Shown here piece after piece: positions 12,412-34,820 of a DNA stretch of 41,867 bases. The DNA is from an uncultured Chthonomonas sp. (GTDB lineage Bacteria > Armatimonadota > Chthonomonadetes > Chthonomonadales > CAJBBX01): contig CAISJD010000003.1 in the NCBI GenBank assembly GCA_903885605.1, forward strand, positions 1-41,867, read 5' to 3'. The notes below the pieces were generated by a model that saw only the letters and a list, made by a program, of their open reading frames with translations, made no database searches and was not told the origin of the DNA. How positions within the stretch are numbered: the stretch's first letter is position 1; every line of letters begins with the position of its first letter. The translations under genes were made by a program, and so were the position numbers.

Positions 12412-13088
12412 GGGACCGTCCTTTTGTAGCCGTCTTCCAGCTTCGCCTTGAGCCGCTGCCTGGCGCGTGCCAGGCGTGTCTTGAGCACGGTGTAGGAGAC
12501 GCCGGTGATGGCCTGCATCTCCTCGTAGTCGCGCTCCTCCAGGTAGTAGAGCACGATGAGCATGCGATCGCTCTCGTTCAGCTGATCGATCGCTTCGCGA
12601 ATCTGGCGCGCCTGATCTTCCCTTTCCAGGGTATTCAGGGCGTCAGTCTCCGCGCTGCCCAGGGACCCGCGCTCTAACTGCCGCTCGTCCGGCCATGCCT
12701 CTTGCGGCCGGGCCATCTTGCGGCTGTGCGCATCACGCGCCAGGTTGGCGGCGATGCGGTACAGCCACGTCGAGACCTTGGCCCGGTACTGGAAGCGACC
12801 GGCGTGCTGCCAGGCCTTGGTGAACACATCCATCGCGGCCTCTTCGGCGTCCTCCCGGGACCCGCTCATGCGGTAGAGGAAGCGGAAGATCGGCGCCTGG
12901 TACCTGCGCGTCAGTTCCCGGAGGGCTTGCTGGTCGCCGGAGGCGCAGCAACGCAGCACATCCTCATCGGGGAGGATCTGAAGGTCGCCGACCGACTTGT
13001 CGGTACGCCCCAAGCGCATTAAGCCATCCGACGCGTGCACCGTAGTTCCATATCGCCACGCTAATGGTTGGTCTGTCCAGGGTGCCAT
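12408..13088 (-). CDS. ECF-type RNA polymerase sigma factor
   Basis: An ECF sigma factor with region 2 (DEDVLRCCASGDQQALRELT ... SREDAEEAAMDVFTKAWQHA, KVSTWLYRIAANLARD) and region 4 (LNESDRMLIVLYYLEERDYE, MQAITGVSYTVLKTRLARAR). The start is uncertain. ATG at 13088, with GGTGAG a few nt upstream, gives 226 residues; GTG at 13112 and ATG at 13019 are alternatives, and 13019 still leaves both domains intact. It heads an operon with anti-sigma and Spy-like genes, all joined by 4-nt overlaps, and is divergent from the efflux adaptor/permease genes, which are therefore candidate members of its regulon. Confidence 0.9.
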   Translation of the reverse strand: MAPWTDQPLAWRYGTTVHASDGLMRLGRTDKSVGDLQILPDEDVLRCCASGDQQALRELTRRYQAPIFRFLYRMSGSREDAEEAAMDVFTKAWQHAGRFQYRAKVSTWLYRIAANLARDAHSRKMARPQEAWPDERQLERGSLGSAETDALNTLEREDQARQIREAIDQLNESDRMLIVLYYLEERDYEEMQAITGVSYTVLKTRLARARQRLKAKLEDGYKRTVP

Positions 13089-13131
13089 CACGCTCACCGT
13101 CGCGCCCCGCACTCGCGGAGCCCAGTCTACT

Positions 13132-13203
13132 TGTTGTAGACGGACCCTCGCACCCGCGGAAACACGACACCTAGAGCCGCCCAGAACGGTCTACTATTGT
13201 ACT
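13132..13203. promoter_or_regulatory. Divergent intergenic region with imperfect inverted repeat
   Basis: Between the sigma operon and the efflux genes, TGTTGTAGACGGA (around 13133-13145) and CGGTCTACTATTGTA (around 13187-13201) form the arms of an imperfect inverted repeat about 40 nt apart. The AT-rich arms stand out from the GC-rich surroundings and include TACAAT on the minus strand at 13196-13201. Placement suggests a shared operator or paired promoters. No convincing -35 box was found. Confidence 0.3.
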
Positions 13204-13283
13204 GCCTCGAAACCCGACGCGCCTGAGCGCCGTAGTGCGCCCGAGTCCCAATCCACGCGGCATAGCCGCTCCCCGGGGGTGAC

Positions 13284-14975
13284 ATGAAGCGACTGAAGAT
13301 CGTCCTTGGCTGCCTGGTTCCTCTGGCTCTCGTCGTAGGGGGAAGCTGGTGGGGCATCCGGCGAGTGCTGACGAAGGTGCCCAAACCGCCGGCGACGGCC
13401 ACCGTGACCCGCGGCACTGTGGAGATCAAGGTTACCGAGACCGGGACGATCGAGCCGCTAACCAAGGTGGACGTGAAGTCCAAGGTCGCCGGTCGGATCG
13501 CCTCGATGCTCGTCGACGAGGGCGACCTGGTGGCCGCGGGCCAGCTCCTTGCCGAGATCGACCCCACCGAGATCAACAGCCAGGTCGATCAAATGCGCGC
13601 GCAGCTCGACGGCTCCCGTGCGCGCCTCTCATCGGCGTCCACCGGCGTGCGCTACCAGCGCGAGCAGACCTCAACGGGCGTCAGGGTGGCCGAACAGGCC
13701 GTGGCGTCGGCGCAATCACAAGTGGAAGTGGCCGAGGAAGAGAGCCGGAGCCAACCCAGCCTGACCGAGGCCGATATCCGCCAGGCCGAGGCCTCCCTGC
13801 GGAGCGCCAAGGCCGCCCTGGACCTCCTTCGGGCCGCCACCCAGCCGCAGGCCCTTGTCGCCGCCCAGACCGGCCTGACCGAGGCCCAGACGGCCTCTGC
13901 CAACGCCCAGCGACAGCTGGCTCGGCAGAACCAGCTGCTGGCCAAGGGCTTCGTCGCCCAGCAACAGGTCGATGCCGCAAGCACCGAGGCTGTCGCGGCC
14001 CGTGCACGCCTTGACCAGGCGCAGAAGCGCATCGACGTCATCAAGGAGCAGCAGAGGCTGGAGGTCGCCGACGCCGAGGAGCGCGTGGCCCAATCCGAGG
14101 CCTCGCTGGCCCGCGCACGAGCCGCGCGCACCATGATAAAAGTCAAGGAGCAGCAGCTCGTGGCGGCCCGCGCCGCGCTCCAGCAGGCCAGGGCGCAGTT
14201 GGTCCAGGCCCGGGCGTCGCGCCTACAGGACAGCATGCGCGGCGACGATGTGGCCCAGGCCCGCTCCGGCGTGGACCAGATCCAGAACCAGCTGACCGAG
14301 ATCGAGGTCCGCCAGCGCGATACGCGGCTGGTGGCTCCCATGGCCGGCGTCATCACCCACCGCTACCTTGAGAAAGGCGAGTTGGTCACCTCCGGCGTCA
14401 GCACCTTCTCCAGCGGCACCCCCGTCTTCCAGGTGGCCGACCTATCCACCATGCTGGTGAAAGCGACCGTTAATGAGGTCGACGTGCACAAGGTGCGCCT
14501 CGGCCTGCCCGTGGAAATCCATATCGACGGCGCCCGCGGCGTCACCTTCCAGGGCCGCGTCACCAAGGTGGCTCCGGCGGCATTCGGCGCCACGGACCCG
14601 AACTCGCAGGCCCAGGGCGCAGGCGGCGTGGTCCGATTCTCTGTGCAGGTGACCGTCACAAAGCCAGACCCACGCCTGCGCCCCGGCATGAGCGCTCGCT
14701 GCACCATCATCATGTCTCGGCGAAGCAGCGTGATGCGCCTGCCGTCGGATGCCGTGGAAGGGTCAGGCGACGACGCCTCGGTACAGATCGCCGGCAAGCC
14801 CGACCCGGCCAAACCCGGTCAGCTTACGTACACGAAGCGCAAGGTCCGCGTAGGCCTTCGGGGCGATACCTTCGTTGAGATCCTCTCCGGCATGAAGGAG
14901 GGCGAGAAGGTGAAGCCGGGCATCTTCACGGGCCCGAAACGCCAGGGCGTCGACTTCGGACCCAAGCCCGACTAG
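13284..14975 (+). CDS. HlyD/MacA-like efflux periplasmic adaptor
   Basis: A 563-residue membrane-fusion protein. GGGGGTGAC precedes the ATG, and an N-terminal anchor helix (IVLGCLVPLALVVGGSWWG) follows. The first biotinyl-lipoyl half motif is VKSKVAGRIASMLVDEGDLV. A very long Ala/Gln/Arg-rich coiled coil covers about 95-345, and the second lipoyl half is TRLVAPMAGVITHRYLEKGE. Beta-barrel and membrane-proximal domains close the protein. The hairpin is longer than in MacA or AcrA, so the tunnel may be tall. It is followed 29 nt later by a MacB-like permease. Such adaptors join an inner-membrane transporter to an outer-membrane exit duct, which implies a diderm envelope. Confidence 0.85.
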   Translation: MKRLKIVLGCLVPLALVVGGSWWGIRRVLTKVPKPPATATVTRGTVEIKVTETGTIEPLTKVDVKSKVAGRIASMLVDEGDLVAAGQLLAEIDPTEINSQVDQMRAQLDGSRARLSSASTGVRYQREQTSTGVRVAEQAVASAQSQVEVAEEESRSQPSLTEADIRQAEASLRSAKAALDLLRAATQPQALVAAQTGLTEAQTASANAQRQLARQNQLLAKGFVAQQQVDAASTEAVAARARLDQAQKRIDVIKEQQRLEVADAEERVAQSEASLARARAARTMIKVKEQQLVAARAALQQARAQLVQARASRLQDSMRGDDVAQARSGVDQIQNQLTEIEVRQRDTRLVAPMAGVITHRYLEKGELVTSGVSTFSSGTPVFQVADLSTMLVKATVNEVDVHKVRLGLPVEIHIDGARGVTFQGRVTKVAPAAFGATDPNSQAQGAGGVVRFSVQVTVTKPDPRLRPGMSARCTIIMSRRSSVMRLPSDAVEGSGDDASVQIAGKPDPAKPGQLTYTKRKVRVGLRGDTFVEILSGMKEGEKVKPGIFTGPKRQGVDFGPKPD

Positions 14976-15004
14976 CGGCGGCAAGACCCAGGAGCCACCA
15001 CACC

Positions 15005-16243
15005 GTGAACCTGCTTCGCAGCATCCAGACCGCCCTCGCCAACCTCCGGGCCAACAAGCTCCGGTCGGCGCTCACCATGCTCGGCGTCATCATCGGCGTC
15101 AGCGCGGTGATCGTCATGGTCACCATCGTCGAGGGCGCCCGCTCGAAGGTCGTCAGCGAGTTTGAGCGCCTCGGGTCCAAGCTCATCATCATCGCCTACG
15201 ATCCCGGCAAGGCGCGCCAGGCGAAGGCCACCAACGTGCTCTCCGGCATGCGCATGGACGACGTGCGCGCCATTGCGGAGCAGTGCGACCTGGTGCAGAG
15301 CATGTCCGCCGAGCTACCCACCGGCGAGATGTCGGCTCGGCGGCTGGACAACGAGGTCCAGATCAAGCTGACCGGCGTGGAGCCCGACTTCGAGCGGCTG
15401 CGCAACCTCGAGATTGCCCAGGGCCGCTTCATCACCCGCGAGGACAACGAAACTTGGTCCAAGGGAGTGGTGATCGGCAGCAAGGTCAGGGATCGGCTCT
15501 TCCCCGGCGAGGATGCCCTGGGCAAGGACTTCGAGATCAAGGGCATCTCGGCCTCCGTCATCGGCGTCCTGGCGCCCAAGGGACGCACCGGCGGCGACGA
15601 CCCGGACATGATGGTCCTGGCGCCGATCACCTCAATCCAGAAGCGATTCGCCGGCGTCGAAATCGTGGGCGTCATCTGGGCCCAGCCGCGCGACGCCGAG
15701 ATGGTAGACGCCGCCATGGACCAGGTCTGGGCATGCCTCATGAGGCGGCACAACAACGCCCCGGGCTTCCAGGTAGACAGCCTGGAGAACATCCAGAACG
15801 CCATCAACCGCGTCCTCAGCATCTTCGGGCTGGTGATGGGAGGGATCGCGGGGCTGGCGCTACTCGTGGGCGGCATCGGCATCATGAACATCATGCTGGT
15901 GAGCGTCACTGAGCGAACCCGCGAGATCGGGCTCCGCAAGGCCGTCGGCGCCAAGAAGAAGGATGTGCTGACGCAGTTCCTTATCGAGGCCGCAACGCTC
16001 TCCGGCGCCGGCGGCGTGGTGGGCATCGGCGTGGGGGCCGGCGTGGCCTATGCCATCGGCGCTATCAGCAAGCAGGTGATGACAGGCGGCATGGGCGGCG
16101 ACCCGGGCATCCCGGTCCACCTGCCGATCTGGGCCATGGCGGGCGCATTCGCGTTCTCGGCCTTCGTCGGCGTCTTCTTTGGCCTGTACCCGGCCTATCG
16201 CGCAGCCGGCCTGGACCCCATCGAAGCCCTGCGGCACGAGTAG
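15005..16243 (+). CDS. MacB-like ABC transporter permease (MacB_PCD + FtsX)
   Basis: A 412-residue permease starting at GTG 15005 with AGGAG upstream. The order is typical of MacB/LolC-like proteins: a first helix after LRSIQTALANLRANKLRSAL, then TMLGVIIGVSAVIVMVTIVEG, a large periplasmic core domain (about 45-270), then FtsX helices with GLALLVGGIGIMNIMLVSV and TERTREIGLRKAVGAKKKDV. The protein ends YPAYRAAGLDPIEALRHE. In MacB the ATPase is fused or in the next gene. Here no ATP-binding domain is in the protein and the next gene is an unrelated convergent one, so the ATPase must lie elsewhere. Likely role: mechanotransmission efflux or lipoprotein release with the adjacent adaptor. Confidence 0.9.
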   Translation: MNLLRSIQTALANLRANKLRSALTMLGVIIGVSAVIVMVTIVEGARSKVVSEFERLGSKLIIIAYDPGKARQAKATNVLSGMRMDDVRAIAEQCDLVQSMSAELPTGEMSARRLDNEVQIKLTGVEPDFERLRNLEIAQGRFITREDNETWSKGVVIGSKVRDRLFPGEDALGKDFEIKGISASVIGVLAPKGRTGGDDPDMMVLAPITSIQKRFAGVEIVGVIWAQPRDAEMVDAAMDQVWACLMRRHNNAPGFQVDSLENIQNAINRVLSIFGLVMGGIAGLALLVGGIGIMNIMLVSVTERTREIGLRKAVGAKKKDVLTQFLIEAATLSGAGGVVGIGVGAGVAYAIGAISKQVMTGGMGGDPGIPVHLPIWAMAGAFAFSAFVGVFFGLYPAYRAAGLDPIEALRHE

Positions 16244-24913: not shown

Positions 24914-27900
24914 ATGATGCCTGCCCTCCTGTGTGCGTTGGCGCTGATCACCGCGGCCGGCCCGGCACTGCCGACGGTCGGCGGGCTGTACGACGGCATG
25001 GTGCGCATACCGGGCGGGATCTTCACCATGGGCGCCGAAGCGGCCGACAGCCCGGATGCCTATCAGCGGCATCGGGTGGCCCTGCGCCCATTCTGGATCG
25101 ACCGGTGCGAGGTGACGCAGGCCGAGTACGCTGCCTTCTGCCGCGCGACGGGCCACAAGGCGCCCGTCACGTGGCGCGACGGAGCGCCCCAGCCCAGGCG
25201 GGAGCGGTGGCCCGTCACCAACGTCACCTGGCACGACGCATCGGCCTACGCGGCATGGGCGGGCAAGCGGCTGCCCACCGAGGCGGAGTGGGAGTACGCA
25301 GCCCGATCGGCGGACGGGCGGACCTACCCGTGGGGCGAAGCCGTCCCCAAGGGACTGGCCGCGCTGGAGGACGAACCCAGCCTCGGCGGCGTGGGCAGGT
25401 TCGCGGCGGGCGCCTCTCCGTTCGGCTGCCTCGATATGTGCGGCAACGTCTGGGAGTGGGTCCAGGACTGGTACGGGCCCTACCCCGAGACGGGCCCGCG
25501 TACCGACCGGGCCGCCTCGGCCATGGGGCCCACGGTCTTCTCGCCGCTCTCGATCCATGCCGGCCGCAAGTACAAGGCGCTTCGGGGCGGCGGCGCCATC
25601 GGCTACTACGGCGCACCGAACCTGGGCCGAACCTTCGACCGCGGCCGGGCCGTACCCTACGGCTGCTATGACGGGACGGGGTTCCGCTGCGCGGCGGATG
25701 ACGGTCCGAGCGTGCGGTACGCGGAAGGCTCCGACGCCACCGCACCGGCGCCACGCCGTTCGCCCGGCGCAACGGCCTCGCAACCGGCCGCCACTTCGGT
25801 TCCTCTCACCATCACAGAGGAGGCCGGGGTTCGGCGCGACGGCGAGATCGTCCGCAGCGGCGTGCCCTTCCCGCAGGGGCTACTAAAGCACGCCGATGGG
25901 CTGGCGCTGATCGGGGCCGACCGGAGCCCGGTGGCGCTGCGAGCGTCGGTGACGGACCGGTGGCGCGACGGAAGCGTGCGGTGGGCGCTACTGGAGTTCG
26001 CCGCGAACGTGGGAGCCGGCGCAACCGCCACGGTGCGTCTGAGGACGGACGCCCGCGCGCGCCTCCCAGCGCCGATGCCGCAACCAACCGCCGACCTGCG
26101 AGCGGCACTGGGCGCCGTCCGGTGGCAGATCGCCGCCGACGGCCGGAGCCGGACCGTGCGGCCCCGCCCAGGCAACGCCTCGCCCTATCCCGTCCCCCTC
26201 GGCACGGACGAGCCCCTCTTCCAGCTCGCCTCGCAACAGCGCCTCTGCTCAGCGGACGGCGCGGCCGCCGACATCACGGCCACTCTGACGCGACGCGGGC
26301 CGGCCGCCATGGCCTCGCTGACGGGCTGGCAGATGGAGATGGAGCTACCGGCCGCGCCCATGGCCGCCCTGCTCGGCGGGCCCAACGGCGTCGTGCGGTT
26401 GGCCGGGCCTGCGGCGTCCGGCCTGCGGCTCGAGCAGTCCGACTCGGAGACCAGCCGCCTACGCGCCGCGGGACGACCGGAGGCCGCGTGGACCCGCGCG
26501 CCGGGGTGGATCGCGCTGCGCTGCGGTAGCCGGTGGATCGGCGTCGCCATGGAGGAGTTCTGGCAGCAGGCCCCTGTGATGATCCGGGTCGAGGGGCGCC
26601 GCCTGAGCATCGGCTTCGACGGGAGCCGCAAGGCCTTCGAGGCCGACCGGGGCATCGCCAAAACGCTCCGCTTCCGCATCGCGGCGACGCAGGCGTTCGA
26701 GCCGTGCGTGGCCCGCCTGAAAGCGCACCAGGCGCCGCTCATGGCGGTGGCAGGCCCCGCATGGAACTGCGGCTCGGGGGCGCTGGGCGACCTGGCCCCC
26801 TATGACCTGGACCGCTTCCCCACCTACGAGACCCGCGTGGCCGCCGAAGTCGACCGGTGGATCCGCAAGCGCCCCTACGGGTTCCGCAACTGGGGCGACG
26901 CCTACCTGGGAGGCCCCTACAAGGGCAAGAACGCCTACGCCAACCTTGAGTACGATATTCCGTATGACTTTGCGATGCAGTTCGCGCGGACCGGAAACCT
27001 CCGCGTCCTCAGGGCGGCCGTCGCCGCGGCGCGGCACCAGGCCGACATCGACACGAACCATGAGACCGGCCTACCGTGGAAGCATAGCCCGAGGCACACC
27101 GAGACCGAAGCCGAACTGGGCCACGTCTTCGTGCGCGGCCTCATCGCCTGGTGGCACCTCACCGGCGACCGGCGCGGCCTCGACGTGGCCCACCAGATCG
27201 GCCTGCGCATCGCCGACGACCTGATCCACAACCGCGGCGTGGGCAACGAGCGGCAGATCGGATGGAGCCTCTACGCGCTGACGGCGGTCTACGCCGCCCA
27301 TGGCGACGAGCGCTGCCTTGCGGGCATCCGGGCGCTGATCGACCGCCTCTGGGCCGGTCAGGAGCCCTCGGGCAGGTTCGCCATCCGGTACGACAACCGC
27401 ATCGCCTTCTTCAACGGCCTGGCTATGGCGGGACTGCGGGAAGCCTATGACGCCACGGGCGACGAACGGGCTGCCGCCATGGCGCTACGGCTGGCCGAGC
27501 GCACGCTGGGTTTCCGTCCGGAGTACGCCGGTCGCACCCTGGACAGCCTCGCGTGGGCCTATGACCGCACGGGCGACGCCCGCTTCCTCGACAACGCGGA
27601 GCGCACCTGGGAGACCACGCAGGAGTACCTCGGCACGCGCCAATGGGGACCGGACAGCACGCTCTTCGCCACGCGCTACCTGCCGTTCCTCAAGCGTCTC
27701 GGCATGGCGCCGACCGGCCCAGCGCCCCTGCGCCTCACGCCGGCCCAGTGCGACACGGCCAACGGGCTCCACCTGACGCACCTTGCGCGGCCGACGGCCG
27801 AAGCGGCCATCCTGGACCGGACGGGGCGGCCGTTCCGCGTCGCCGTCATCCGCCACGGTAGCCTGGACGCCGCCTGGTGCAGGCTCACATCAGGCGGACG

Positions 27901-28447
27901 CACGGTAGCCCAGATCCGGTTCGCGCCATCGCCGGACGCGGGTCTGCGCCGGACGGCGCTCGTGCCCGCGGGCAAGCCGGGGCGCATCCTGCGGCTGGCC
28001 CTGACCTCGAAGCAGTCGCAAGGATGGGACATCGTCACCGACAGGGCCATGCCACGCGTCGTCGCCACACGCGACCTCGGCATCCTGGATCGCCTCGTGC
28101 CGACCGTCTTCTGCGCCGCCGTGGGCAGCCGCATCCGCCTGACGCTCAGGGCAAAGGGAGAGGGCTTCCACGGCGCGGTCATCACGCGCCCCGACGGCTC
28201 CATCGCGGCCCTCGGCAGGCGGTTCGTGGACTTCGGCGACAGCGCCGAGTACACCTTCACGGTGGAGGCGCCCGTCCCCGCCGGCCACCGAGGCGGGCTC
28301 TGGCAGCTGGACCTGCAGGATGCCGAGGTCATCGCCGCCGAGGGGCTGGAAGGTCACGCCGCCTGCAGCCGGGCCGCCTGGTTCGCGGTCCCGGCCGCAC
28401 GCGGTGCGCGCTACTCCCGGCAGATCACCCGGAAGCCCACGTTGTAG
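24914..28447 (+). CDS. Secreted fusion: FGE-like domain + PcRGLX/YetA-like (PL26-type) lyase
   Basis: A 1177-residue protein with a signal peptide. Residues about 25-260 are a formylglycine-generating-enzyme/SUMF1 fold: MVRIPGGIFTMG, RLPTEAEWEYAARSADGRTY, GCLDMCGNVWEWVQDWYG, ALRGGGAIGYYG. The FGE catalytic Cys pair expected after GGS is absent (GGGAIGYYGAPNLG), so it is probably a binding module. From about 300 comes an N-terminal RIFT-barrel-like domain (SGVPFPQGLLKH; RWRDGSVRWALLEF near D352), then a beta-sandwich, then an alpha/alpha toroid (NWGDAYLGGPYKGKN, HHE-like DIDTNHETGLPWKHS). This order is that of PcRGLX/YetA exo-rhamnogalacturonan lyase-like proteins. The last 37 nt overlap the convergent cytochrome/FGE gene. 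Third gene of the GH32-GH127 operon. Confidence 0.8.
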   Translation: MMPALLCALALITAAGPALPTVGGLYDGMVRIPGGIFTMGAEAADSPDAYQRHRVALRPFWIDRCEVTQAEYAAFCRATGHKAPVTWRDGAPQPRRERWPVTNVTWHDASAYAAWAGKRLPTEAEWEYAARSADGRTYPWGEAVPKGLAALEDEPSLGGVGRFAAGASPFGCLDMCGNVWEWVQDWYGPYPETGPRTDRAASAMGPTVFSPLSIHAGRKYKALRGGGAIGYYGAPNLGRTFDRGRAVPYGCYDGTGFRCAADDGPSVRYAEGSDATAPAPRRSPGATASQPAATSVPLTITEEAGVRRDGEIVRSGVPFPQGLLKHADGLALIGADRSPVALRASVTDRWRDGSVRWALLEFAANVGAGATATVRLRTDARARLPAPMPQPTADLRAALGAVRWQIAADGRSRTVRPRPGNASPYPVPLGTDEPLFQLASQQRLCSADGAAADITATLTRRGPAAMASLTGWQMEMELPAAPMAALLGGPNGVVRLAGPAASGLRLEQSDSETSRLRAAGRPEAAWTRAPGWIALRCGSRWIGVAMEEFWQQAPVMIRVEGRRLSIGFDGSRKAFEADRGIAKTLRFRIAATQAFEPCVARLKAHQAPLMAVAGPAWNCGSGALGDLAPYDLDRFPTYETRVAAEVDRWIRKRPYGFRNWGDAYLGGPYKGKNAYANLEYDIPYDFAMQFARTGNLRVLRAAVAAARHQADIDTNHETGLPWKHSPRHTETEAELGHVFVRGLIAWWHLTGDRRGLDVAHQIGLRIADDLIHNRGVGNERQIGWSLYALTAVYAAHGDERCLAGIRALIDRLWAGQEPSGRFAIRYDNRIAFFNGLAMAGLREAYDATGDERAAAMALRLAERTLGFRPEYAGRTLDSLAWAYDRTGDARFLDNAERTWETTQEYLGTRQWGPDSTLFATRYLPFLKRLGMAPTGPAPLRLTPAQCDTANGLHLTHLARPTAEAAILDRTGRPFRVAVIRHGSLDAAWCRLTSGGRTVAQIRFAPSPDAGLRRTALVPAGKPGRILRLALTSKQSQGWDIVTDRAMPRVVATRDLGILDRLVPTVFCAAVGSRIRLTLRAKGEGFHGAVITRPDGSIAALGRRFVDFGDSAEYTFTVEAPVPAGHRGGLWQLDLQDAEVIAAEGLEGHAACSRAAWFAVPAARGARYSRQITRKPTL

Positions 28448-31400
28448 ACTGCCTGCCAGGGCGTGTACTGCAGCCGGTACGAGGAGGTGCAGCGGGCCGG
28501 CCGGTCGTACCAGCTCCCGCCGCGCACGACCCGCTCGGCGGATGGGTCCGTGACGGCATCGCCGCCGCCGGGGCGTCGCGTGTAGGCCGAGCGGGTCCAT
28601 TCGGCCACATTGCCGTGCATGTCGCATAGGCCCCACGGGTTTGGCGCGAAGGAGCCGGCATCGGCGGGCAGCAGTGCGCCGTCGCTGAAGCGCGTCTCCT
28701 TCGGCGCCCAGTCGAGCAACGGATCGGGGTTCGGCACGGGCTTGGGATCGATGCCCGCCACGGCAAGTGCGGTGAGGCTCTGGTCGCCCATATTGGCGGC
28801 GCGGCCGAAGTCCGTATCCAGTCCGCCGAACCAGAAGGGTTTGGCGCTCCCGGCTCGGCAGGCGTACTCCCACTGCGTCTCGGTGGGCAGGTCGAACTTC
28901 AGGCCTGTCTTGCGGCTGAGCCACCGGGCGAAGCGATCGGCCTCGGCCCACGTCATGCGGACCGCGGGCTGGCTTGGCCGGTCCATGGGGTAGCCGCGCG
29001 AGGTGTGGTCCTTGTTGTGCATGCCGATGACGCCGTTGTCGTGCCGCGGGTCGAAGCGGGCGTACTGGGCGTTGGTCGTCTCCGTGACGGCCATCCAGAA
29101 GCCCTTCACCACGCGCCGCGCGGTCATGGGGCGCTCGTCCGGCGCTCCGCTGTTGGAGCCCATGACGAAGGCGCCCGGCGGCACGTAGGCCAACCGCAGC
29201 TTCACGCCGCCTCCCAGGTCCACGACGCGCTGGGCCTTGCGTGACGCCTGCCTGCGGGCGGCCACATCGGGTCCGAAGGGCCATCCCGCGGGGTTCGCCG
29301 GGGCCGGAGGCGCGGGCTCCGCGGGCATGGGCGGCACCGGCGGCGAGGCCGGCGCATCGGGCGGCATGGCCTCGTGGTCGATATCCGATCCGCCGTACTT
29401 CCGAGCCAGTTCCATCATTCGGCGGTTGCGCTCGGGTGCGGCGCCGTTCTGCGCGGTCCAGGTACCGTGGCACGGCACGTTCAGGTCGATCCAAGTGTAG
29501 AGGCGGTTCCAGGCCTCCGGCGCCAGCTTGACGCCGTGGTGGCCCTTCTTCAGCATCTGGACCAGCTCGCTGGTGTCGGCGTCCCACTCGCGAGGCCGCT
29601 GCAGATGATAGTCGCTCTCGTTGCCGGGGCGCCGGACGAAGCGGTGCAGGGCCTCGTAAGCCGGGGTGAAGGCGCCTCGGTAGTTCGTGACGGCCGCACG
29701 GGCGCGCAGGTCCGGCCGCCCCGGCGCGCCGTCGTGGCAGCTGACGCAGTAGCGCTGCAGCACGGGAGCCTGCACCTCGCGCTCGAAGCTGAAGCCGCGG
29801 GCCGGGCCGAACCACGGGGCGATCTTGGCCGGGACCATCCCCTCGGGCCGGGGCCGCCTCAGACCGGGCGCGCTGCTCTGCGGCTCGTGGCAGCCCTGGC
29901 AGGTGGCGAACTCGCCGGGCATGGCCGTGTACCAGGAGCGCATGACCTGCAGAGCTTTGCCCTCGGCATCCAGCGGCTGCACCACCAGCGGCAGGTTGGC
30001 CGGCGCGGTGAAGAGGGCCGAACCACGTGCGTTGACCGGCACGGTGCCGAGGATGCGCTTCACGTCCCACGGGCCGTCGATGCCCACGTTCACGTGGCCG
30101 CCCATGCCGCGGTAGCCGTAGTGGTTGGCGTAGATGCGCAGCGACTTCACGGTGCCGCGGGGGACGCCCTTCAGCCCCGGCCCTCGGTAGACATCGGCCA
30201 GGAAAACTGTGGCGGTCTTCTGGGCGACCTTGGCGCGGTCGGGCGTCGCGGGCGGCATGGGCCTGGGCATCACCGGCACGGGTTCCAGCAGGGCGTAGCC
30301 GGGCTCCTCTGCCAGGAGGACGAGATTGTCGAACACGTCGGCGAGGTAGATGCCCCAGGGCCGCCCGGTCGGCTGGCAGGAGACGAGGAAGTACTTGTCG
30401 CTGAGCGGGAAGGGGTGGAGGAACCTGGGCGACACCTGGTCCACCAACTGGTCACGGATGATCGGCTCCACGCGCTTGCCGAAGCCGGGCACACGCTGCA
30501 CCACGCCGGAGGCCTCGTGGCGGCCTCGGGCCGTGTCCAGAACCACCAGCTCGCCCATGCGCGGCACGCCGTGGTGGCCCGAGACGATCACCGTGAGCTT
30601 GCTCGGGTGGCCGGGCACGGGCCGGGCGTAGAAGAGGGAGTTGGGCCAGAAGCTGTTGGAGCCGTACTCCTCCATCTGGTTGGAGCCGTCCGGGTTCATC
30701 TTGAACAGCAACCGCGAGAAGTAGTGCGGCGTGTCGCTGTACTCCCAGCGCGTGTAGATGACCTGGCCGTTGTTCAGCACGCGCGGATACCAGCTGTGGT
30801 CCTGGTCGTAGGTTAACTGCCGCGCCGAGCCCGACTTGGGATCGAGAAGGTAGAGCGAGCCGACCGAGTCGCCGCCGCCCACGCAGGGCACGCCCACGTA
30901 GCAGGCGGTGGAGCAGTAGACGATGCGGCCGTCGGGCAGGTAGGCGCCGCTGTAGTTGTCGACGTCCGGCTCTTCGCCCGCCGTCACCTGCCGCGGCTCG
31001 CCGCCATCAGTGGGCATCTCGAAGAGCTGGAAGCGGCCGTGCGTACCGGGCATGGAGAGGAGCATCCGCCGGGCGTCCCAGTGCGGCTCCAAATCACCCA
31101 CGAAGGCGCCATTCTCGGGCTGGTAGACCACCGACCGAGCGCCCGTGGCGATGGAGAGCCGCTCGATCCGGTTGTCGTAGCCGCGCGCGGGGATGGAGGA
31201 GTTGCCCTGCCAGTTCTGCGGGAGGCCCATCTGCCGCTCGGACCGGCGTACGTAAAGCAGCTTGTCGAACCGGAGCAGCGGGTTGGCCAGCAGGGCCTCG
31301 CGGCGGAGGGCGGCCAGTTCGGCGACGGCGGCATCGCGGCGTCCCTCCGGCGCCTTGCCGATCGCCGCGCAGAGGCTGTCAATCCTGGCAAGATAGGCGG

Positions 31401-32043
31401 CGCCCTTCGGATAGCCCGCGCCATGCTGGGCCATCAGGTCGCGGACGGCGCGGCGCAGGGCCGGCACAGGGAAGCCCGCGACGGCCGAAACGGGATCGAT
31501 GACGTCGCCCGCCGAAGCGTCGCCGTCGAGGCGGAAGAAGAAGCCCGAGCCGCCCGAGATGTTGTAGACCTTCAGCAGGAGCCGGTTCTCCCCGGCCCGA
31601 AGCGGCAGGGCCAGGCTGTCCTGATCCGGCGCGGTCACCCGCGGCACATCGTTGGCCAGCAGGCGCACGCCGTTCAACCAGACCGCCAGGCCGTCATCGC
31701 TGCCGAACCGCGCCGTGACCGTGCGAGCGTCGGGCGACGTGAGGGTCCGCATCAGGTAGGCCGAGCCGTTGTCCGGCAGGCCCAGGTCGTGCGACCGGCC
31801 GTCGGGCAGGTCGCGCTTCACCCACGCGACGCCTGCCACCGGCTCGGAGCACGAAACCGAGCGCTCCGGCCCGAACTCGACGGCGAAGCCCCTTCCCTCC
31901 GTGGGAACGAACGGCCCGGCCACGTACCACGCGCCCATGGTGAGCGTGGGTTTGGGGGCCACGGGGCGCCTCGCGGGCTTGGGCGCCGCAAGCATGGAGA
32001 AGAGGGCGACAGTCGCCGCGATGCAGGCCGAACGAACTAGCAT
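28411..32043 (-). CDS. Secreted HzsA-like/di-haem cytochrome c/FGE-fold fusion protein
   Basis: A 1210-residue exported protein. After a signal peptide, residues about 35-180 form a PA14/CBM-like module. At about 265-690 comes a TolB/WD-type beta-propeller resembling the hydrazine-synthase-alpha (HzsA)-related proteins of Planctomycetota (GLPQNWQGNSSIPARGYDNR; VYRGPGLKGVPRGTVKSLR). Two c-type haem sites follow: CQGCH at 715-719 and CVSCH at 766-770. A Pro/Ala linker (about 900-925) leads to an FGE/SUMF1-like domain (about 940-1210: YVPPGAFVMGSNSG, DLPTETQWEYACRAG, GLCDMHGNVAEWTRSAY, VVRGGSWYDRPARC). Relative to true FGE the first catalytic Cys is D1180 and only C1185 remains. Known HzsA makes hydrazine, but no anammox partners are here, so that function is not implied. 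Role unknown. Confidence 0.85.
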   Translation of the reverse strand: MLVRSACIAATVALFSMLAAPKPARRPVAPKPTLTMGAWYVAGPFVPTEGRGFAVEFGPERSVSCSEPVAGVAWVKRDLPDGRSHDLGLPDNGSAYLMRTLTSPDARTVTARFGSDDGLAVWLNGVRLLANDVPRVTAPDQDSLALPLRAGENRLLLKVYNISGGSGFFFRLDGDASAGDVIDPVSAVAGFPVPALRRAVRDLMAQHGAGYPKGAAYLARIDSLCAAIGKAPEGRRDAAVAELAALRREALLANPLLRFDKLLYVRRSERQMGLPQNWQGNSSIPARGYDNRIERLSIATGARSVVYQPENGAFVGDLEPHWDARRMLLSMPGTHGRFQLFEMPTDGGEPRQVTAGEEPDVDNYSGAYLPDGRIVYCSTACYVGVPCVGGGDSVGSLYLLDPKSGSARQLTYDQDHSWYPRVLNNGQVIYTRWEYSDTPHYFSRLLFKMNPDGSNQMEEYGSNSFWPNSLFYARPVPGHPSKLTVIVSGHHGVPRMGELVVLDTARGRHEASGVVQRVPGFGKRVEPIIRDQLVDQVSPRFLHPFPLSDKYFLVSCQPTGRPWGIYLADVFDNLVLLAEEPGYALLEPVPVMPRPMPPATPDRAKVAQKTATVFLADVYRGPGLKGVPRGTVKSLRIYANHYGYRGMGGHVNVGIDGPWDVKRILGTVPVNARGSALFTAPANLPLVVQPLDAEGKALQVMRSWYTAMPGEFATCQGCHEPQSSAPGLRRPRPEGMVPAKIAPWFGPARGFSFEREVQAPVLQRYCVSCHDGAPGRPDLRARAAVTNYRGAFTPAYEALHRFVRRPGNESDYHLQRPREWDADTSELVQMLKKGHHGVKLAPEAWNRLYTWIDLNVPCHGTWTAQNGAAPERNRRMMELARKYGGSDIDHEAMPPDAPASPPVPPMPAEPAPPAPANPAGWPFGPDVAARRQASRKAQRVVDLGGGVKLRLAYVPPGAFVMGSNSGAPDERPMTARRVVKGFWMAVTETTNAQYARFDPRHDNGVIGMHNKDHTSRGYPMDRPSQPAVRMTWAEADRFARWLSRKTGLKFDLPTETQWEYACRAGSAKPFWFGGLDTDFGRAANMGDQSLTALAVAGIDPKPVPNPDPLLDWAPKETRFSDGALLPADAGSFAPNPWGLCDMHGNVAEWTRSAYTRRPGGGDAVTDPSAERVVRGGSWYDRPARCTSSYRLQYTPWQAVYNVGFRVICRE

Positions 32044-32789: not shown

Positions 32790-34820
32790 CTAAGGCGTCA
32801 CGGTCAGGACCCCGGCACTGCCGTGTGGCATATACCACGGGTCGCCATCGAAGGCTGCCACCATGGGGTGATCCCCGAGCGCGGTCTCGGCTGTCACAGC
32901 GAACAGGTACGAAGCCCGTCCGCCGGATTCTGTCACGGCAGCGCCCAGCACAGTTCCATCGACCGAGAACCGGATCGTGCGGTTCGTGAGCCACGAGTAG
33001 TCGGGCAGCCGCCGCAGGTACGCACGAAGGTAGGTGTTCGCACCACGCTGGGCCGACCGCGACGCTAGCCAGAGGTAGCTCGGGGCCTGATCAACGCCGA
33101 GCGTTGCGGTAGTCGAAGCTGCCCGATAGCCGCCGTCACCTGGCCACTGCACGGTAAGCGACCGCGCACCGGGCCCCTCTCCCTCTAGAGGAACATAGGC
33201 CAGCAACGACCGACCGTTCGGGTTGGTCGCTACCGAGCCGACGACTGTACCATCGACTGCAAAGGTCAGCACCTTGCCCTGCGCCGGTAGGTGCATTGGT
33301 CCCCAATACAGGTACGCCTTCAGAAGAACACTGTCACCGATCTCTCCCGATCGGCTTGGCACCGTGAGGGTAGTGTCCTGCGTAAGAGCCGTCAGCGTTG
33401 CCGATGCCGACGAGGCAGCGTAGTAGACGTCTCCTAGGTGCGTAGCCGCAATGCTGCGTGTGGCAGTTCCCGGGGCAATGGTCCAGTCCAGATAGGCCAT
33501 GCCAGACGGATTGGTTACTGCCGACCCGACATGCGATCCATCGACATTCATCATGACCACGCGGCCCGCTAGCCAGGCCAGGTCGGACACCCGCCGTAGG
33601 TAAGCTCTCATCCGGATCGACTCCGTGATCGTGCCGGTTCGGTCGACGGTATAGAGCGTAGTCGGTGATGGTTGCGGCGGCGCCGGCAGTGATCCACTGT
33701 GCAGGTACCCAGCATCGACTGCGCCCGTGCCGGTGGAGCCGGCGACGGGAACCGGAACCGAACTGCTGGTGGTTCCACCAGTGCCCAACTGGCCCGACGA
33801 GTTCAGGCCCCACGAGCGGACGATCGTATCTGCCCCAAGGGCCATGCTATGCACGTCACCTGCGGCAACCGCGGTACAGGACGGCAACCCCTGCACCTGA
33901 ACGGGCATCCACCTATCAGTTAGCGTGCCGTCGCCGAGTTGGCCGTCGTGGTTGCGGCCCCACGTCCAGACAGAACCGTCAGACAGGAGCGCCATGTTGT
34001 GCAACGCGCCGCCTGAGACCGCAATGACGCCACTTGGAAGAAGAACACGCACGGGCGAGTAGCGGTCCTGGGTTGTGCCGTCACCAATCTGGCCGTAGGT
34101 GTTGGCGCCCCAAGCCCAGAGTGTGCCGTCCGACCTGACCGCTAGCCCATGATGGCCGGTGCCCGAGATGGCGATTATGCCCGTCAGGCCCTGAACCCTC
34201 ACGGGAACCAGCCTGTTGGTACTGGTCCCGTCACCGATGGCGCCACCGAAGCTGCCGCCCCAAGCCCACACTGCGCCGTCTGCAGTAAGCGCGAGGCTGT
34301 GCCAGGCGCCACTGGCAATGGCGACGACATCGGAGAGCCCGGTCACCTTGACCGGTGTGCGCCGCCCCACGGTAGTGCCATCGCCGAGCTGCCCGGTCTC
34401 GTTCCGGCCCCACGCCCAGACCGTACCATCAGCCTTGAGTGCCAGGCTATGCCAGTCACCGCCCCCAACTGCGATGCAGCCAGTGAGGCCCACAACCTGC
34501 CCTGGAGCCCATCGGTCCGCGACTGATCCGTCGCCCAACTGGCCGTGACCATTGCCGCCCCATGTCCATACGGCGCCGTCTGCCCCGAGCGCGAGGGTAT
34601 GGTAGTGTTCGCATGCAATCTGCGTGATCTCAGGAAGGCCGGCCACCTGGACCGGCAAGGTCCGGTTGGTGTTCGTACCGTCGCCCAACTGGCCATAGTA
34701 GTTGTATCCCCATGTAGCAGGTGCTGCGCTCGCAACGGCTTGGATGGATACAGCAAGCACGGCAGCCACCAGCGCAGGGACAACGCCAAACAGAAGCCGA
34801 CCCGTAGACAAGACTGGCAT
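32790..34820 (-). CDS. Secreted RCC1-repeat protein with three Ig-like repeats
   Basis: A 676-residue exported protein; AGGAG precedes the ATG and a signal peptide (VVPALVAAVLAVSIQAVASA) follows. Seven RCC1-type repeats are visible between about 30 and 365, each with a GQLGDGT-like core (YGQLGDGT, HGQLGDGS, TGQLGDGT, GGAIGDGT, YGQIGDGT, DGQLGDGT, SGQLGTGG) and a W.WG turn, giving one seven-bladed propeller. Three tandem Ig/Big-like repeats of about 95 residues follow, each with a FSVDGTVLG-type strand. No catalytic residues are evident. It is probably an adhesion or matrix protein. Codon use is visibly less GC-biased at third positions than in its neighbours, a sign of recent transfer or relaxed selection. 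Confidence 0.85.
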   Translation of the reverse strand: MPVLSTGRLLFGVVPALVAAVLAVSIQAVASAAPATWGYNYYGQLGDGTNTNRTLPVQVAGLPEITQIACEHYHTLALGADGAVWTWGGNGHGQLGDGSVADRWAPGQVVGLTGCIAVGGGDWHSLALKADGTVWAWGRNETGQLGDGTTVGRRTPVKVTGLSDVVAIASGAWHSLALTADGAVWAWGGSFGGAIGDGTSTNRLVPVRVQGLTGIIAISGTGHHGLAVRSDGTLWAWGANTYGQIGDGTTQDRYSPVRVLLPSGVIAVSGGALHNMALLSDGSVWTWGRNHDGQLGDGTLTDRWMPVQVQGLPSCTAVAAGDVHSMALGADTIVRSWGLNSSGQLGTGGTTSSSVPVPVAGSTGTGAVDAGYLHSGSLPAPPQPSPTTLYTVDRTGTITESIRMRAYLRRVSDLAWLAGRVVMMNVDGSHVGSAVTNPSGMAYLDWTIAPGTATRSIAATHLGDVYYAASSASATLTALTQDTTLTVPSRSGEIGDSVLLKAYLYWGPMHLPAQGKVLTFAVDGTVVGSVATNPNGRSLLAYVPLEGEGPGARSLTVQWPGDGGYRAASTTATLGVDQAPSYLWLASRSAQRGANTYLRAYLRRLPDYSWLTNRTIRFSVDGTVLGAAVTESGGRASYLFAVTAETALGDHPMVAAFDGDPWYMPHGSAGVLTVTP

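Follow-up and report, generated by a model that had tools for sequence, protein, structure and literature searches.

At the locus examined here, a stretch of 41,867 nucleotides from an uncultured Chthonomonas sp. of the Armatimonadota, a soil or water bacterium (contig CAISJD010000003.1, assembly GCA_903885605.1; the whole stretch is called the window below), an ATG-initiated open reading frame (ORF) on the minus strand encodes a 1210-aa haem protein in which a core resembling HzsA, the alpha subunit of hydrazine synthase (HZS; known only from anammox bacteria), is joined to a C-terminal domain of the formylglycine-generating enzyme (FGE) type (Table 1). An original prediction, made from the sequence alone, had placed an HzsA-like propeller, two CxxCH haem sites and an FGE-like domain in this one protein, and each of these parts held up under profile and structure comparison. 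The motifs CQGCH and CVSCH are its sole CxxCH motifs. Pfam matches to HZS_alpha (PF18582) and FGE-sulfatase (PF03781) were above the gathering scores; the TolB match for the propeller fell below its cut-off, and this assignment is backed by the AlphaFold2 model, which matches HzsA chain 5c2v_A. That model, of the whole protein from 77 sequences, had a mean pLDDT of 91 and a pTM of 0.83; its closest solved structure was hydrazine synthase alpha 5c2v_A (Foldseek E 3.4e-25), also its top match by Z score (33.8 over 554 residues, 3.1 Å), and a profile of 50 relatives matched the same chain in colinear segments (E 3.5e-43). Kinship with HzsA is therefore not confined to the propeller: the homology runs through the whole core, which comprises the propeller, the haem I middle domain and the haem II cytochrome domain. 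With a PF18582 match above gathering score, the HzsA fold and both haem motifs, the protein belongs to the HZS-like alpha family; against the NCBIfam equivalog hydrazine_alpha it scored 33.2 bits, short of the 800-bit cut-off.

A scan for relatives in one genome per species found 161, of which 80 with the FGE domain (FGE-type) were kept for counts and loci; adding paralogues without that domain gave a set of 113 sequences. The relatives come from Planctomycetota, Verrucomicrobiota, Kiritimatiellota, Lentisphaerota, Hydrogenedentota, Sumerlaeota, Armatimonadota and Bacteroidota. Conservation of the haem motifs in orthologues was the test set beforehand, and C715, C718, H719, C766, C769 and H770 were identical in 80/80 FGE-type proteins and across the full set of 113, so that these motifs are not chance occurrences; cytochrome c assembly genes (Cytochrom_C_asm) are present in the window's genome. 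Several alphas without the FGE domain have a third CxxCH near the C-terminus (L010, L012, L015, L016, L024, L027, L032, L043, L046, L063, L081 and L082).

Compared with HzsA of Ca. Kuenenia stuttgartiensis (PDB 5C2V), the window protein has the same propeller, HZS_alpha domain with haem I and cytochrome domain with haem II, with the two CxxCH motifs in the same order and the distal His of haem II. This His, H835, was kept in 113/113 and lined up with HzsA H772, which supplies the second ligand to haem II, although the match is gap-ambiguous: a second alignment places H836 there instead. That alignment used HzsA proteins of three anammox-type genomes as controls, one of which matches the protein of Kuenenia in 5C2V. 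PMC12758564 gives the haem II site only for its clade I homologues, with the distal His lacking, whereas in the present set that His is invariant. Other residues of HzsA are missing. Its haem-I axial ligand Tyr591 is replaced by S723, with no Tyr among the relatives' common residues, and its zinc ligand Cys303 by N463 (N, G or S in relatives); Cys303 is not universal even among anammox bacteria (PMC12758564). In turn, C387, R432 and Y435 (each 113/113) and W433 (112/113) form a family-specific set absent from HzsA, which has S, V and A at the positions of R432, W433 and Y435. The window protein further differs in adding an N-terminal domain of sugar-binding type and the C-terminal FGE-like domain.

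Table 1. Features of the haem protein gene and its convergent neighbour (positions in the window)
Feature	Position	Strand	Basis
Alpha-type HZS-like haem protein with FGE-like domain	28411..32043	-	ORF, Pfam, predicted structure
Signal-peptide-like N-terminus, residues 1-24	31972..32043	-	sequence judged by eye
N-terminal jelly-roll domain, residues 34-176	31516..31944	-	AlphaFold2, Foldseek, Z scores
HzsA/TolB-like beta-propeller, residues 258-617	30193..31272	-	profile and structure matches
C387, in 113/113 relatives, not in HzsA	30883..30885	-	alignment
R432-W433-E434-Y435	30739..30750	-	alignment: R, Y 113/113; W 112/113
HZS_alpha middle domain, residues 630-720	29884..30156	-	PF18582, E 2e-26
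Haem I motif CQGCH, residues 715-719	29887..29901	-	counterpart of HzsA haem alpha-I CSGCH
Cytochrome c-like domain of haem II, residues ~745-868	29440..29811	-	Pfam, profile, alignment
Haem II motif CVSCH, residues 766-770	29734..29748	-	counterpart of HzsA haem alpha-II
H835, predicted second axial ligand of haem II	29539..29541	-	113/113, aligns with HzsA H772
Pro/Ala-rich linker, residues 893-923	29275..29367	-	sequence
FGE/PvdO-like domain, residues 954-1207, without the FGE cysteine pair	28423..29184	-	PF03781, E 1e-40
Convergent neighbour: FGE domain, PcRGLX RIFT-barrel and GH127-like	24914..28447	+	37-bp overlap at 3' ends

The recurrent neighbour of these alphas, in 15-16 of the 80 loci, is a propeller fused to a dihaem domain like that of cytochrome c peroxidase (CCP) and MauG. 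Since a profile of 14 such neighbours matched both HzsB (E 5e-44) and HzsC (E 8.3e-38), we regard it as a fused HzsB-HzsC homologue (beta-gamma); fused forms are known from Ca. Scalindua and from the homologues of PMC12758564. The HzsC loop holding C165 and D168 is deleted from it, and an invariant extra Cys lies seven residues ahead of its first haem motif. An extra Cys and Trp shortly ahead of this motif (C437 and W441, numbering of L108) were seen in 15/15, where HzsC has Ser; they may provide an altered third bond to the haem or another ligand.

Beta-gamma is found almost only in genomes with such alphas, often adjacent (e.g. L022, L024, L030, L032, L053, L056 and L068). In Rikenellaceae, alpha and beta-gamma each occurred in 30/150 genomes, the same ones, most with both on one contig within ~12 kb; in Armatimonadota each occurred in 12/61, 11 of them shared, and in Planctomycetota alpha occurred in 21/119 and beta-gamma in 13/119, with 12 shared. 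The corresponding Fisher P values (3e-32, 3e-10 and 4e-10) ignore kinship, and related genomes are not independent. Beta-gamma was present in 39 of 40 genomes with an FGE-type alpha, absences being subject to the incompleteness of metagenome-assembled genomes. The window's genome has one full-length beta-gamma (G000:C117:27953-29887, i.e. L108:7968-9890; E 5.5e-187), directly before an alpha paralogue, versus 18 alphas. From such gene patterns we strongly infer that alpha and beta-gamma form a complex. Two plasmids of Aureibacter tunicatorum, pAT2 and pAT4 (L128 and L129), each hold an FGE-type alpha and a beta-gamma-like cytochrome, the pAT4 pair beside sulfatases and a GH2 (glycoside hydrolase family 2) gene; these plasmids are a possible vehicle for transfer between phyla.

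Alphas number up to 26 per genome, and they differ mainly in attached modules, most often of lectin or carbohydrate-binding type. In the window protein this module is the N-terminal jelly-roll, which, folded alone with AlphaFold2 (pLDDT 84.6), came closest to carbohydrate-binding module family 35 (CBM35), PA14 sugar-binding and GH2 N-terminal domains; the top Foldseek match was CBM35 2w3j (E 9.7e-5), and the Z score to GH2 N-terminal domains was about 10, a modest match to a common fold. Elsewhere in its genome, alphas have F5/8 type C (L108, L114, L123), LamG/ConA-like (L110, L115, L120, L122) or NPCBM (L113, L117) modules, a polysaccharide-lyase-4 CBM-like domain (L116) or DUF7402 (L119); the L122 alpha also has a Mala_s_1-like propeller, a family that occurs as a separate gene beside the alpha in Bacteroidota operons. 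Among the N-termini of 48 relatives we counted NPCBM (7), CBM6 (3), F5/8C (2), F5/8C_2 (2), CBM35 (1) and GDSL (1). Swapped modules of carbohydrate-binding type are typical of proteins acting on glycans.

The C-terminal domain (residues 932-1210) shares the PF03781 fold of PvdO, FGE and SUMF2, with PvdO closest (Z 30.3; FGE about 25), but it is fused to a dihaem core and lacks the copper-binding cysteine pair of FGE catalysis, which was found in 0/80 FGE-type sequences; FGE catalysis was rejected on this ground. It had been suggested that D1180 replaces the first FGE Cys and that C1185 remains; this is literally true of the window protein, where residues 1180-1185 read DRPARC, but C1185 is not a retained catalytic residue, because that position is Cys in merely 20/80 and Ala in 42/80 (D1180 is kept in 73/80). 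The domain occurs in 3 of the 18 alphas of the window's genome (the window protein, L110 and L113). When the core was placed in a FastTree phylogeny, all 80 FGE-type proteins clustered together (support 100) with the phyla intermixed, the window protein lying with Planctomycetota L021, L022, L024 and L032, which suggests a single FGE fusion and repeated horizontal transfer. The matches listed in a phage search were to the FGE domain only: Microcystis phages and a single faecal phage record (H23-H27) contain domains similar to residues 942-1210.

Operons of the relatives add sugar catabolism to this picture. In Bacteroidota and in four loci of the Planctomycetota-Verrucomicrobiota-Chlamydiota (PVC) group (L029, L030, L064, L092), nearby genes encode, among other proteins, DhaK and DhaL together with an LsrF-type aldolase and a cupin; a profile of the cupin matched D-lyxose/D-mannose isomerase structures (8e-24), and the aldolase aligned full-length with LsrF (E 5e-110), above the NCBIfam equivalog cut-off. 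A chorismatase/RidA-like gene is present in several operons. In the gut commensal Parabacteroides distasonis the whole set lies in one apparent operon (L127:8279-23325, NZ_OY725748.1), with genes for an IclR regulator, beta-gamma, a RidA/chorismatase-like protein, the cupin and alpha-FGE, followed by ccsA, a p106-like protein, DhaK, DhaL, lsrF, WD40, a major facilitator superfamily (MFS) transporter and GH130. This record is labelled as a plasmid and may be chromosomal, because mfd is on it. LsrF itself is a thiolase of autoinducer-2 (AI-2) catabolism; the gut-operon relatives are paired with DhaKL kinase in place of LsrK (L090:7287-8168, L127:21514-22386), and their pathway is possibly unrelated to AI-2. 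PMC6080902, considered as a source on lsrF in Bacteroidales, proved unrelated. GFO/IDH/MocA proteins (15/80) and sulfatases (9/80) also adjoin the alphas, both being common in these phyla and counted with no background comparison. At L113, in the window's genome, two genes of the same orientation come after an FGE-type alpha. They encode a 3-keto-disaccharide-hydrolase-type protein (13062-13709) and then a GFO/IDH-type protein (13751-15199), names that we assigned from the gene sequences; genes at the loci of this genome were called with a simple codon-usage script.

The window protein is best read as an interchangeable, glycan-targeting alpha of an HZS-like haem oxidoreductase. With moderate confidence we take it to be the alpha subunit of an HZS-like haem complex whose product is not hydrazine; this alpha shares its beta-gamma with other alphas and most likely acts on a sugar or glycan. 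Haem-based oxidation of glycans, as first proposed, agrees with the sugar-binding-type modules and with the sugar-catabolic operons of relatives, and is our best guess because of them; it is plausible and the least certain step, other substrates being possible. The original idea of an electron-transfer partner for a nearby enzyme can be refined: the probable partner is beta-gamma, not a glycosidase nearby. In the mechanism we envisage, each alpha would be exported and loaded with two c-type haems, and would dock on the shared beta-gamma as HzsA does on HzsB/HzsC. The glycan target would be bound by the N-terminal jelly-roll, perhaps also by the FGE-like domain, and the substrate would be oxidised either at haem I, in a pocket formed by the propeller with C387, R432, W433 and Y435, or at the haem of beta-gamma. 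Electrons would then pass through haem II and the second gamma haem to an acceptor in the periplasm. For gut Bacteroidales, the product could feed the periplasmic D-lyxose-isomerase-like cupin, the DhaKL kinase and the LsrF-type thiolase/aldolase. More broadly, and with considerable doubt, we picture a hitherto unrecognised class of extracytoplasmic redox machines as the stock from which hydrazine synthase came, widespread among environmental phyla and present in commensals of the human gut, each joining one catalytic beta-gamma core with interchangeable, glycan-addressed HzsA-like alphas that oxidise different sugars or glycans.

An unlikely competitor that still deserves weight makes the alpha a non-catalytic electron-transfer or receptor protein, binding a glycan or partner and relaying electrons between a catalytic, MauG/peroxidase-like beta-gamma and an acceptor. 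The predicted bis-His haem II, like that of HzsA alpha-II, the CCP/MauG dihaem fold of beta-gamma and the sharing of one beta-gamma among many alphas would all suit such a relay, but haem I lies at the conserved HZS_alpha/propeller region with the invariant C387, R432 and Y435, an arrangement more suggestive of a site than of a relay. Haem alpha-I of HzsA is a proposed active site, with a tunnel to gamma-I (PMC12607021), and for this reason we suspect a site at haem I here. Nitrogen-oxide or hydroxylamine chemistry akin to that of HZS (e.g. conversion of NO or NH2OH, or N-N or C-N bond formation on an organic substrate) seems improbable: it is favoured by the fact that alpha and beta-gamma are both HZS homologues and by the chorismatase/RidA-like genes, but residues of hydrazine synthesis are missing from alpha (Y591, C303) and from beta-gamma (C165, D168) alike, and the modules and operons are sugar-related. 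Anammox metabolism was rejected on the same missing residues, other anammox genes not having been searched for in the window's genome. Very improbable, in our judgement, is a peroxide-scavenging or stress protein, a CCP-like system lying near sugar genes by chance; the likeness of beta-gamma to dihaem cytochrome c peroxidase and MauG fits it, but neither the multiplicity of alphas and their swapped lectin-type modules in the window's genome nor an operon with kinase, LsrF-type aldolase and MFS transporter suits a general stress role. An active FGE or PvdO-type enzyme with an accessory haem part is scarcely credible despite the PvdO fold and the RefSeq family name, as the cysteine pair is lacking throughout and the FGE domain, a single group in the tree, is missing from 15 of the 18 own-genome alphas while the haem core is universal.

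Several points weigh against our preferred reading, a glycan-directed alpha working with beta-gamma. We know of no activity, spectrum or interaction for any family member, and the lectin-like modules may be aimed at cell surfaces instead of substrates. The beta-gamma of the window's genome lies on a contig other than the window, and nine Planctomycetota genomes have an alpha but no beta-gamma at E 1e-60. This is partly explained: one exception (G169) has an anammox-type HzsA with separate HzsB and HzsC, and another (G205), seen from 6 kb of sequence, has an anammox-type HzsA. LsrF is absent from the window's genome, so that family members do not all share one downstream pathway; found at 8-9 of the 80 loci, LsrF/DhaKL was ruled out as a universal path. 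The proposed carbohydrate setting is borne out in the window, with GH127, GH32, GH95 and an FGE/PcRGLX/GH127-like protein, but not in general: the neighbours of the 17 other alphas of this genome are mixed, and outside the genus we did not find the window's glycoside hydrolase genes kept as neighbours. These glycosidases were ruled out as conserved partners, several of the nearest orthologues outside the genus adjoining beta-gamma and other alphas.

To our knowledge, hydrazine synthase was once thought to be without relatives and has lately been traced to haem proteins of unassigned role. Those relatives now appear as a large system, patchy in distribution, in which alpha and beta-gamma are tightly paired and modules of sugar-binding type are attached; these modules suggest a job for the ancestors of hydrazine synthase. 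Parts of this were already known: PMC12758564 (Hagglund et al. 2025) and PMC10732223 (2023) describe non-anammox HZS-alpha homologues co-located with fused beta-gamma and bereft of key HZS residues, and the latter proposes a wider enzyme family with other substrates. In the passages of these papers that were searched we found no FGE fusion or carbohydrate-binding modules, and in the literature we found nothing on the FGE-fused form or the P. distasonis operon; relative to it, the FGE fusion, the sugar-binding modules, the pattern of many alphas to one beta-gamma and the gut operon are apparently new. P. distasonis offers a host for testing, with the whole set, a cytochrome c assembly gene, kinase and aldolase in one apparent operon. 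Were sugar or glycan oxidation true, a haem route would be added to the bacterial attack on carbohydrates, in anaerobic gut bacteria included. Annotation would be corrected too, as the RefSeq-derived alphas, that of P. distasonis among such FGE-fused proteins, are currently named only 'SUMF1/EgtB/PvdO family nonheme iron enzyme'.

Around the haem gene itself, arrangements similar to the convergent FGE/PcRGLX/GH127-like neighbour occur at relatives L019 and L020, and beside the gene on the minus strand (32790-34820) lies an RCC1-repeat propeller with bacterial Ig-like (Big_3_5) domains.

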